A DNA stretch of 64,000 nucleotides from an uncultured Chitinophagaceae bacterium. GTDB lineage: Bacteria > Bacteroidota > Bacteroidia > Chitinophagales > Chitinophagaceae. Where the stretch lies: positions 1-64,000 of the forward strand of contig CAISCV010000087.1 in assembly GCA_903883945.1 (NCBI GenBank). Direction: 5' to 3'. Of this stretch, positions 24,477 to 50,010 are shown piece after piece. The notes beneath the pieces were generated by a model that worked only from the letters and a program-made list of their open reading frames with translations, did no database searches and was not told the origin of the DNA. The position numbers and the translations under genes were made by a program. The number at the start of each line of letters is the position of its first letter. Positions within the stretch are counted from its first letter, which is position 1.

Positions 24477-24552
24477 CTCATGAGTTATCTAATACTCTTT
24501 GTTTCTTCTCTTTTCTATAACTCATAATTTATAACTCATAACTCATAAATAA

Positions 24553-27957: not shown

Positions 27958-28290
27958 TAAACCCAATCATAGTAAGGATATAACGTATCGATGGTTAATA
28001 AACCCCATTCGTGTTAAGATAAAGGGTAGCCAACATAATATAAACCCTACCCGACTTACGATGTGGCGTATCAAAGCTACAATAAACCCCACCCAACCTC
28101 GGATAAACCCCACCCAACTGATGACATAGCATATCAAAGGACAGATAAACCCCGTCAGGGTTAAGATGAAGGAAATAAACCCCATCAAACTAAAGATTTA
28201 GCGTATCGAAGGTTAAATAACCCCTATCAAGGGTTAGATAAACCACATCTAAGGCTCAATAAATTCCATCAAGGGTAAGATATACCACTG
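27958..28290. repeat. Array A: degenerate 21-bp-periodic tandem repeats (TAAACCCCA type)
   Basis: TAAACCC-type cores begin at 27958, 27999, 28041, 28083, 28104, 28146, 28176, 28218, 28239 and 28260, with a degenerate copy at 28281. The spacings are 41, 42, 42, 21, 42, 30, 42, 21, 21 and 21. A second unit, GCGTATCRAAGG-like, is at 27984, 28067, 28130 and 28202. The region lies between the converging MMPL and M13 genes. Because the period is a multiple of three, a minus-strand frame of repeated GFI peptides stays open, but it has no other coding evidence. Confidence 0.85.
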
Positions 28291-31955: not shown

Positions 31956-32052
31956 GGAGAGAGTAGATAGTAGCTATGAGTTACTTGTTGTCTCTAATTA
32001 AAATCAATCTATTATCTACTATCTATTATCTGCTAGTACTAACTATAAAATT

Positions 32053-37878: not shown

Positions 37879-38120
37879 GGTGTCATCTAAAACGTTACTT
37901 GCCCTACTCCTTTTTTGGGGAATGCCACCCATAACGTTATTCGCCCTATTCCCATTTTTAGGAATGCCACCCATAATGTTACTTGCCCTACTCCTTTTTT
38001 GGGGAATGCCATCCATAACGTTATTTGCCCTATTCCCTTTTTTGGGAATACCATCCATAACATTATTTGCCTTATTCCTGTTTTTTGGGATGCCACCCAT
38101 AACGTTATTTGTACTATTCT
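37879..38120. repeat. Array B: 42-bp tandem repeats (GGAATGCCACCCATAACGTT type)
   Basis: GAATGCCACCC-type cores begin at 37921, 37963, 38005, 38047 and about 38089, exactly 42 bp apart, with a degenerate first copy near 37879. The other half of each unit is TTGCCCTACTCCTTTTTTGG-like. Frames remain open on both strands because 42 is divisible by three (repeated GIPKKGNRANNVM-type peptides), but these have no promoter, no clear start and no relatives among other proteins here, so I treat the region as non-coding. Confidence 0.88.
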
Positions 38121-44095: not shown

Positions 44096-44199
44096 TTAAC
44101 GATTAACGTTTAGTGATTAATGATTAATACACTTAATAATCGCTATTTGCTACACATTAATCATTAATCATTAAACATTAATCACTAAACATTAATAAC
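44096..44199. repeat. AT-rich inverted/tandem repeat spacer between ccoG and ccoH
   Basis: The left arm (GATTAACGTTTAGTGATTAA...) is complementary to the repeated CATTAATCATTAA-type right arm that ends directly at the ccoH ATG. The spacer can form a long imperfect hairpin. The same design recurs at 44638-44727. Confidence 0.7.
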
Positions 44200-44637: not shown

Positions 44638-44727
44638 TTTCAATGATTAGTGATTAATGTTTAATGATTAATACTCAAGCGAAACATTAATCATTAATCA
44701 TTAATCATTAAACATTAATCTTTAAAA
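44638..44727. repeat. AT-rich hairpin spacer between ccoH and the TauE/SafE gene
   Basis: GATTAATGTTTAATGATTAA and its exact reverse complement (about 44652-44672 and 44696-44716) form a perfect stem of about 21 bp. Additional tandem CATTAAT copies run up to the next start codon. Confidence 0.75.
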
Positions 44728-47409: not shown

Positions 47410-48810
47410 CTATTTAGATGTTTGATAGCAACCCAGATCCGGTTTAGTTGCCGGGCGTGAATGCCCGTCCAGATCGGTTAACAAGTTTGTATTTGCACCT
47501 GCTTTAAGGGCAGGATTCGTATTGGTATTGGCTAAATGAAAGTCGAAGAATAGATTGCCCAAATCTATGTTAGTAAAGGTTGGAATTACATTTACCTGAC
47601 AATAAAAGTTAAGTTTTACATAAGGGGCTATGTCGTCCTTATCCTTGTATAGCACATTGTTGAAGTTTACATTGGCACTGGTAACTGTTTTGGCAAAAAC
47701 CACTTCATTCGTTACCAAGCTCCCCAACCCATACAAAATGCTGTTATTGAAGGTGCAATTAAGCGGAAAAGAAAGGTTGTAGCTATCGGTATTACTGATA
47801 CTCACCACCGGATTGGTGTGTGATACGTAGCTGTTGTCGTAGCTAGTTACCGTACATTGGTCGAATGTGTAGCTACCCCCTTCGGTTATGTTGATGTTGC
47901 TGCCACTGTTGGTAATCAAACAATTGGTTGCATTGATACTGCTGTAAGCGGCACCGATTGCGATGTTGTAGATATTGCTAAAAATACATTTATCCAGCGT
48001 AAGTACCGGATTAGTGGTGGCAGCGGGCCCAACCACCGATACGCCATTGTATCCATTTAGGATTGTACAATATTGCAGGAAATTGTTGCTGCTGCTTGCT
48101 GTGAAATAGATGCCTGGCCACGACCCAGGAAAGCCATTGTAGGGCGCATCGAGCCTGTCGCACCTAAAACTAATGCGGTTGGTGGTATCGCCCACTGCAT
48201 TCAAAGTTCCTTTGATGATGAGTGATGCTTTTGCGTTGGCATACACTTTTGTGCCTTTTTGTATGGTGAGCGTTTTGCCAGAATCTACCGTTACATCACC
48301 TAGCAATACAATGGGTAACTTATTGGTCCAGGTGGTATCGTTTTTAATCTCGGTTTTTTTAATAAAATTAGCATTATGACCATACGCAACCAGTTGCAGC
48401 CAGGTGGTATCTCCGTTGTAAGTGATGCGAATACTGTCTCTTCGGATAAAAAAAGTATCCTCGTTTGTTGCACTGATAGACACACTCACATAACCCCATA
48501 GACTATCATTGGCATCAATGGTTTGATTGTTAAAGGATGCACCAGGCGAACCATCTAAATTGAGTTTAAAAAAGGAGTTGGCACCGCCCATCAGTTGTAC
48601 ATTACTTAGTAAAAGTTTCTGGTTGTTGTTATTAAATATCCTGAAAGAACCAGTAATAGAACCTGTTGTGGTAAAGACAGTATCGAAGTAAAGGGTGTCG
48701 GAAGACAGACTAAGAGACGCATTTTTGCTCGTAATAAAAGTATCTTTCTTACACGAAGAAACAGATGCCATAATGAGAATAGCCAACAGTATAACAGAAA
48801 CAACTTTCAT
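47410..48810 (-). CDS. Lipoprotein with right-handed beta-helix (choice-of-anchor Q-like)
   Basis: The 466-residue protein has a lipobox (MASVSSCKKD), a beta-sandwich region (about 25-150, LYFDTVFTTTGSITGSFRIF), a parallel beta-helix with recurring ITN/CTILNGYNG turns (about 165-380), and the closing LLTDLDGHSRPATKPDLGCY, typical of choice-of-anchor Q proteins. It lies upstream of the exosortase gene on the same strand (63 bp gap). It is probably a surface polysaccharide-binding or polysaccharide-cleaving protein, but no catalytic site was seen. Confidence 0.82.
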   Translation of the reverse strand: MKVVSVILLAILIMASVSSCKKDTFITSKNASLSLSSDTLYFDTVFTTTGSITGSFRIFNNNNQKLLLSNVQLMGGANSFFKLNLDGSPGASFNNQTIDANDSLWGYVSVSISATNEDTFFIRRDSIRITYNGDTTWLQLVAYGHNANFIKKTEIKNDTTWTNKLPIVLLGDVTVDSGKTLTIQKGTKVYANAKASLIIKGTLNAVGDTTNRISFRCDRLDAPYNGFPGSWPGIYFTASSSNNFLQYCTILNGYNGVSVVGPAATTNPVLTLDKCIFSNIYNIAIGAAYSSINATNCLITNSGSNINITEGGSYTFDQCTVTSYDNSYVSHTNPVVSISNTDSYNLSFPLNCTFNNSILYGLGSLVTNEVVFAKTVTSANVNFNNVLYKDKDDIAPYVKLNFYCQVNVIPTFTNIDLGNLFFDFHLANTNTNPALKAGANTNLLTDLDGHSRPATKPDLGCYQTSK

Positions 48811-48943
48811 TTGGTAAAAATAGGCGTTAGCCGTTAAATAATATGAAGGCGTAATAATTTATGAGTTAATTACCGCTAGAAGCCCCTTTTCAGCTTCATT
48901 TTTTGCTATGAAAGGGTGAAATAGGGTTTGACTAGTGGGCGGG

Positions 48944-49120
48944 AAAACATTTCCTGTACACCAGAAAACATTCCGGGGGCACCAGAAAACATTCCGGGGG
49001 CACCAGAAAACATTTCGGGGACACCGGAAAACATTCCGGGGACACCGGAAAACATTTCGGGGACACCGGAAAACATTTCGGGGACACCGGAAAACATTTC
49101 GGGGACACCGGAAATGTTTG
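48944..49120. repeat. Array C: 21-bp tandem repeats (GGGGACACCGGAAAACATT)
   Basis: CACC(A/G)G cores begin at 48959, 48980, 49001, 49022, 49043, 49064, 49085 and 49106, exactly 21 bp apart, with a partial copy before the first. Units are nearly identical apart from AGA/GGA and C/T variants. The array lies between the divergent beta-helix lipoprotein gene and the restriction-gene remnant. Frames of repeated GVPEMFS-type peptides are open on both strands only because the period is a multiple of three. Confidence 0.93.
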
Positions 49121-49158
49121 CCATTGATTTGACCCCTCCTGAAATTACTTGACAGTTT

Positions 49159-49982
49159 TTGGTGTTAATATTACTATTTGTTTACCGTAATTTGGGTTAT
49201 TACTTATGCAAGAATACAGCTTTGTTTGCTACTCCTACTTTTCTAAAGATAGACGGCACAGTAAGAGAAAAGGTGTTAGCCTATATTCTTGACCCGGCAA
49301 AGAAGGATACTAGGATAAAGAACCTATCGAAAAGGGTGATGGATTTAATAGGTAATATGTACCCGATTGATGACAGGGAAATAGAAAAATATATAGTAGC
49401 CATCTTATCAGACTTTAGCGATGAACAGTTTACTGATCTTGCCAATAACGAATACAGCTATGTAAAAAGATTAAGGACAAAATAAATGCGCTATCAGAAG
49501 TATTTGCCGAAGAGCAATTTAGAAAGTTGTTGGATATAGATAAGATATTCATCAAGCCTACATATAGTTTACTAACACAAATTGCACCTGGAGAGACTTC
49601 CAAAGACATTGCTAAGTCATTGTATGAAAAAGAAGGCAGTATGAATGGGTTTGAAGAAAGGGTGATTAATGACATTGCCAATCTACAAAATATCCAATTC
49701 TGGACAAGGAACACGGATAAAAAAGGCATAGGCTTTTGCATTAATGGCTTCATTAATCATTATCCAGATTTTATCATTCAAACAAAAAGTGGAAAGACCA
49801 TAATAGTAGAAACAAAAGGAGATGACAGAGATAATAGTGACAGTGAAATGAAGATTAGGCTTGGTACAGCTTGGGCAAATAAGGCAGGTAGCAACTTTAA
49901 GTACTTTATGGTATTTGATAAGAAAGAAGTTATTGGGGCATATAAGCTTGATGAATTTATAAAGTTGATACAACAATTGTAA
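49159..49982 (+). pseudogene. C-terminal remnant of a type III restriction/DEAD-box helicase subunit, frameshifted
   Basis: Two frames join into one protein end. The first (to 49485) carries DREIEKYIVAILSDFSDEQF. The second, readable from about 49464 as KDKINALSEVFAEEQFRKLL, continues to IGFCINGFINHYPDFIIQTK then SGKTIIVETKGDDRD. The last part matches the PD-(D/E)xK nuclease end of type III Res-like proteins. A run of five A at 49464-49468 is one base short for the frames to join, so a deletion there explains the shift. The helicase body (about 700 residues) is missing. Inactive as written. Confidence 0.75.
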
Positions 49983-50010
49983 GAAATGAAATTCCCTGCC
50001 GGTTCCCACT

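Follow-up and report, generated by a model that had tools for sequence, protein, structure and literature searches.

A 21-bp minisatellite beside an IS3-family relic in a Chitinophagaceae genome, and the putative preference of this element for the edges of period-locked arrays

The choice of target by a transposase is normally explained by sequence or by one conserved repeat family. One question raised by the locus described here, in which a block of direct repeats (array C) adjoins what looks like the end of an insertion sequence (IS), is then whether the repeats belong to the element, were made by it or were there before it arrived. The window, by which we mean the whole stretch of DNA analysed, comprises 64,000 nt of contig CAISCV010000087.1 (assembly GCA_903883945.1, uncultured Chitinophagaceae bacterium). 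A preliminary description of this DNA had noted eight cores 21 bp apart, lying between divergent regions, and had proposed that they could be the multi-repeat end of a lost IS21-type element, a proposal of which, as will be seen, only some parts survive.

The count and the spacing were correct. TRF reports a period of 21 with 8.2 copies and 92% matches, and a repeat search finds successive copies exactly 21 bp apart. No differences are found among the three full units closest to the IS end, as would fit local duplication, whereas the left-most units have diverged and the first (48942-48962) is degenerate. The unit contains the inverted repeat GGAAA-N3-TTTCC. The surroundings are divergent on the left, where a 466-aa gene reads leftward, but not on the right, where a transposon remnant is followed by a gene fragment (Table 1). 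Compared with a CRISPR array, the units run head-to-tail with no unique spacers between repeats; compared with a BrickBuilt-like MITE, the array has a single IS end alongside, and not a conserved leader and tail with an inverted repeat at either terminus. A search of array C and its flank against plasmids returned chance matches only. When 618 kb of the same genome were subjected to a Markov shuffle only four weak arrays were obtained, none of them with a period of 7, 14, 21 or 42, as against 72 arrays in the real sequence, and array C is therefore not due to chance. It is confirmed as a real minisatellite of eight 21-base repeats.

Table 1. Position, strand and character of the features discussed (window coordinates)
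Feature	Position	Strand	Remarks
Left neighbour gene, 466 aa, no Pfam family	47410..48810	-	upstream region carries array C; related array in G214
Array C	48942..49114	.	8.2 units of 21 bp, consensus GGAAAACATTTCGGGGACACC
Inverted edge unit, partial (CCGGAAATGTTTGCC)	about 49108..49122	.	arm of inverted repeat with 49089-49103
IRR end remnant, IS3-family insertion sequence	49130..49242	-	blastn 96.5% over 114 nt to L026 IS
Inward-reading terminal repeat of IRR, TGACCCCTCCTGAAATTACTTGACAG	49130-49155
Type III restriction (Res) gene, truncated, interrupted 3' end	49230..49983	+	84.6% nt identical to G138:C276
Two more intergenic arrays, same class	28173-28288 (42-bp), 37884-38119 (84/42-bp)		unrelated in sequence to array C

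The 72 arrays in these 618 kb constitute a class in which the period is a multiple of 7 in 56 cases, mainly 7, 14, 21 and 42. Those of at least 19 bp are mostly intergenic: 11 lie between genes in tandem orientation, 7 between divergent and 3 between convergent genes; 5 overlap predicted ORFs and 5 are unassigned. The same period bias is observed at other Chitinophagaceae loci, although the loci with the right IS end (IRR) among these are enriched in arrays through their selection. The short heptamer and 14-mer tandem repeats of the window (ATAACTC, CATTAAT and others, at 24517-24548, 44154-44195, 44682-44726 and 32007-32035) are part of this genome-wide bias. Palindromy, which to the eye appeared universal, is significant in 13 of 55 arrays, a frequency above chance but one that rules out a general property, such that hairpins can serve only a subset of arrays. 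Likewise, DNA curvature as an explanation of the class is unsupported, there being no excess of AT phasing at 10.5 bp in the arrays. Within the 21-bp unit, similarity at lag 7 is weak (0.298 versus 0.265, sd 0.013) and hints at a heptamer ancestry.

The right flank of array C carries GATTTGACCCCTCC, of which TGACCCCTCC is the tip of an IS end, and the earlier reading of this flank as the end of a lost insertion sequence was sound. Of the element itself 113 bp are left in the window, orfB, orfA and the left end (IRL) being lost, and the IS at array C is thus a relic. The assignment to IS21 fails. The transposase gene is absent from the window itself, but the transposase found behind the same end in another MAG (L026) matches NF033516 transpos_IS3 with 227 bits against a cut-off of 160, and its OrfB has both Pfam rve and rve_3 above cut-off. 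In L088 the opposite end, TGTCATCTCCTGAAATAGCTTGTCAG, lies upstream of orfA, whose product aligns with the N-terminal portion of NF033516 (20 bits, E 3e-4) and bears a weak resemblance at most to HTH_Tnp_1; this IRL was detected in 6 of 7 genomes. Both ends are terminal inverted repeats of the IS3 type starting with 5'-TG. IstB-like matches in the array C genome, by comparison, are partial, one of them barely above the Pfam cut-off, and none lies beside the end; given an IS3-family OrfB and no istA/istB pair with these ends, IS21 is excluded as the family of the flanking element. The match to an IS thus accounts for the flank but not for the array.

The place expected for the remainder of the IS is occupied by the Res fragment. 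A full-length copy of this gene, together with a methyltransferase gene, is found in G138:C276 (L265), and the window fragment is 95% identical to it at the protein level. Since the chromosomal gene next to it reaches 58%, far below this value, the fragment was probably acquired horizontally.

Which came first, the array or the IS, can be approached through the left neighbour gene, 132 bp upstream of which array C lies and which every one of the 13 genomes of the genus contains. In G214, a near relative (protein 90% identical; L206), an array occupies the same place; its units, among them GCCCCCAGAAACTTTTCTGTT, are motif-related to array C, and no IS sequence lies beside it, an arrangement which indicates that at this locus the array preceded the IS. 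No array is found upstream of the orthologue in G048 (protein 86% identical), nor in the upstream regions read from less closely related members of the genus, and arrays therefore come and go within it. These comparisons also bear on the possibility that array C is an operator or attenuator array for the left gene, with a dimeric regulator bound to each unit at GGAAA-N3-TTTCC. The inverted repeat, the upstream position and the retention of a related array in G214 are all compatible with such a function, yet the array is absent where the protein is still 86% identical, and arrays elsewhere occur irrespective of whether the spacer is tandem, divergent or convergent and have no motif in common, so that we consider a regulatory role unlikely.

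The behaviour of the IS can be followed in its other copies. A search of genome contigs with CTGAAATTACTTGACAG, taken from just right of array C, returned 51 stretches, of which about 40 are Chitinophagaceae MAG contigs; many of these stop within some 130 bp of the motif, as expected where assemblies break in a multicopy element. A scan of viral contigs for both IS ends found none. A tandem array stands next to IRR in 36 of 43 flanks, a sample drawn from draft MAGs of seven genomes in which two nested ends come from one contig. The periods of these arrays are 42 (18), 21 (13), 22 (2), 43 (2) and 14 (1), and the distance from IRR to the array has a median of 9 nt, being 0 nt in 12 of the 36. 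In the remaining seven flanks, among them that of C192, the second IRR of the array C genome, no array was detected. Beside IRL, in contrast, an array occurs in 3 of 45 flanks, which does not differ from the background of 4% of random windows from the loci examined (Fisher; IRR versus IRL about 4e-14, IRR versus background 2e-41). The arrays beside IRR share their period and not their sequence, the mean best identity between consensus units being 10.09/21 compared with 9.89 for shuffled units, with a few related pairs. With respect to strand skew, the IRR flanks have no GC skew and a slight AT skew. In related bacteria, on this evidence, the IS would nearly always land at an array edge, in one orientation and whatever the sequence of the array.

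The position at the edge rests on eight sites at which the two sides of an insertion were paired across the break in the assembly; since the genomes, all of them draft MAGs, have assemblies that break in the IS, most IRL and IRR contigs are unmatched. At the matched sites IRL is bordered by 1-3 units and IRR usually by at least 8, few on the left and many on the right being found at L154/L135, L158/L033, L103/L128, L105/L060, L089/L119 and L099/L124. For example, L154/L135, a typical case, has two GTCAGCAGTGTTTTACATAAA units at IRL and about ten at IRR, with AAG duplicated. A putative insertion rule emerges, by which the IS enters at the edge of an array with its IRR facing the larger part of the repeats. 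A second relic in the array C genome, in which a pattern search detects three IS ends in total, agrees with this rule, since an IRL fragment at C80:12315 is followed directly by a 21-bp array. Duplications of 3 bp are normal for IS3 elements, for which the type is 3-5 bp, and AAG, ACC, TGT, AGT and GTT are duplicated at matched sites. A 3-bp duplication is also supported by the terminal three bases of IRL and IRR flanks of the same genome, which agree 34 times against 14.4 expected. Exceptions are L099/L124, which is not clean, and L097/L139, which shares 22 bp; a target duplication of 21-24 bp, as the latter suggested, was rejected as the rule because 3 bp agrees with the pair statistics and with the remaining matched sites. 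At L046 a nested or collapsed insertion lies beside an array, with an IRL fragment 66 bp from an IRR that belongs to the same IS family.

The same data allow three further explanations to be weighed. It is improbable that the IS itself makes the arrays, activity at IRR repeatedly duplicating the adjacent 21 bp so that growth occurs on that side only. The strong one-sidedness, the identity of the array C units closest to IRR and the single 22-bp duplication would all be understandable on this account, but the G214 locus holds an IS-free array, the array C genome is rich in arrays yet contains so few IS ends, and at the matched sites units are already present on the IRL side while the duplication is usually 3 bp. 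Nor do we give much credence to passive accumulation, according to which arrays, being mostly intergenic, simply mark space where insertion is harmless and the IS has no real preference: arrays should then occur equally on both sides of the element, whereas the IRL side is at background, and a related IS3 element (45% aa, different ends) has an array beside neither of the two copies seen, albeit a small sample. No other multicopy IS family with the same one-sided association was seen in these genomes, again a small control. That the repeats are internal transposase-binding end-repeats of the lost IS, as in some IS21 ends and as initially suggested, is very improbable indeed, for although the flank is truly an IS end abutting the array, the element is of the IS3 family, array C is external to the terminal inverted repeat, the end adjoins arrays of unrelated sequence in about 40 other copies, and the orthologous array in G214 has no IS.

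The reading we prefer, with a probability of about 0.75, is that array C is one of a class of period-locked minisatellites, that an IS3 element targets the edges of such arrays and that the flank is a relic of this IS; the array, the IS end and its family, the array-first order, the orientation bias and the diversity of target sequences are the parts of it that the comparisons above directly support. The minisatellites would have a unit length locked to multiples of 7 (mostly 21 and 42) and a locus-specific sequence, and would arise and turn over in whole-unit steps, probably by replication slippage or unequal exchange. The IS3 element, bounded by IRL TGTCATCTCCTGAAATAGCTTGTCAG and IRR TGACCCCTCCTGAAATTACTTGACAG, would prefer array edges as insertion sites and enter with a 3-bp target duplication and IRR facing the array bulk, the array-like character of the target and not any one sequence being decisive. 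The cue received by the transposase complex could then be structural or a protein. At array C the IS would have entered an array that already stood upstream of the left gene, at its outer edge, and would later have been lost except for 113 bp of the IRR end, the type III restriction fragment replacing the rest. More tentative is the proposal, possible though in our opinion rather doubtful, that the IS3 complex reads the 21-bp periodicity itself, through DNA structure or a coating host protein, and so inserts at the edge in fixed orientation, the arrays being sequence-free but period-locked and kept at their loci while their sequence is replaced.

Several known systems resemble parts of this picture. 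Closest are the IS3 elements IS1397, ISKpn1 and ISPsy8, which insert within REP palindromes; for the first two this is known from experiments, for the third from an analysis of genomes (PMC1525189). As with these, the transposase is of the IS3 family, the target is intergenic repeated DNA and the preference is visible in genomes; however, their targets form one conserved palindromic REP/PU family, whereas those of the element at array C share a period and not a sequence, and they insert within REP whereas this element is placed at the edge of an array, which its IRR faces. The IS1397-like pattern of insertion into a single conserved family of palindromes was accordingly not found, the targets being unrelated and only 13 of the 55 arrays palindromic. 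The multi-repeat ends of IS21 are similar in that an IS end adjoins several direct repeats, but the transposase family is different, and the repeats here are external to the terminal inverted repeat and are not the same in each copy. BrickBuilt of Porphyromonas gingivalis is a 23-nt minisatellite in a MITE, with one sequence at 19 loci and its own leader, tail and inverted-repeat ends, no copy being bisected by an autonomous element (PMC4596501). It too is an intergenic minisatellite associated with mobile DNA in a Bacteroidota genome, but the arrays described here have a locus-specific sequence, and a leader and tail were not found. Heptamer simple repeats, for which polymerase slippage was proposed, occur in cyanobacteria, Beggiatoaceae and some Bacteroidetes (PMC4679880, with Mrazek 2007 cited therein). 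These are likewise intergenic tandem repeats built on 7 nt; the longer arrays in the present case, unlike them, have mostly 21- or 42-nt units and most sequences are unrelated between loci, although 7- and 14-nt arrays also occur. In the literature searched neither the array class nor the behaviour of the IS, nor the combination of both, is described.

That one IS should pick arrays sharing period but not sequence, and from the same side, calls for a structural or protein cue and opens such a cue to testing, and the comparison exposes in Chitinophagaceae a large and little-described class of period-locked minisatellites. The preference for array edges is read from patterns in draft MAGs; if true, the IS would be a natural probe of whatever marks these arrays, and the system would be a tractable one for the long-standing question of why bacterial tandem repeats favour multiples of 7.

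Some further loci illustrate the turnover of arrays between genomes. At the places in G048 corresponding to the two other arrays of the window there is an array at neither, candidate counterparts of window arrays A and B having been discarded on checking the orientation of the loci. One orthologous intergenic spot carries a different 21-bp array in each of three species (L184 5849-6050, L237 312-471 and L240 4264-4480). With respect to the L184 array, that of G214 is related, both palindrome arms having changed together from TCCAAG..CTTGGA to TCCGAG..CTCGGA, while that of G048 is unrelated but has the same 21-bp period and lies exactly between the same flanking sequences. Similarly, for L184 13063-13346, G048 carries a different array beside the same downstream gene. 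L184 3000-3095 is a dispersed element of about 95 bp, of which G214 has over 15 additional copies, about 80-84% identical, and G048 several. Finally, a Bacteroidales MAG, from another order of Bacteroidota, has four distinct loci with a related terminal repeat, and a 21-bp array adjoins every one of them; at L257, L259, L261 and L262 (MAG STD2_97) an IS-like end, TGTCGCTTCCTGAAATTACTTGACAG, stands in solo or tandem copies at the edge of 21-bp arrays of the GGAACTGTGGAACGACACTCG type.
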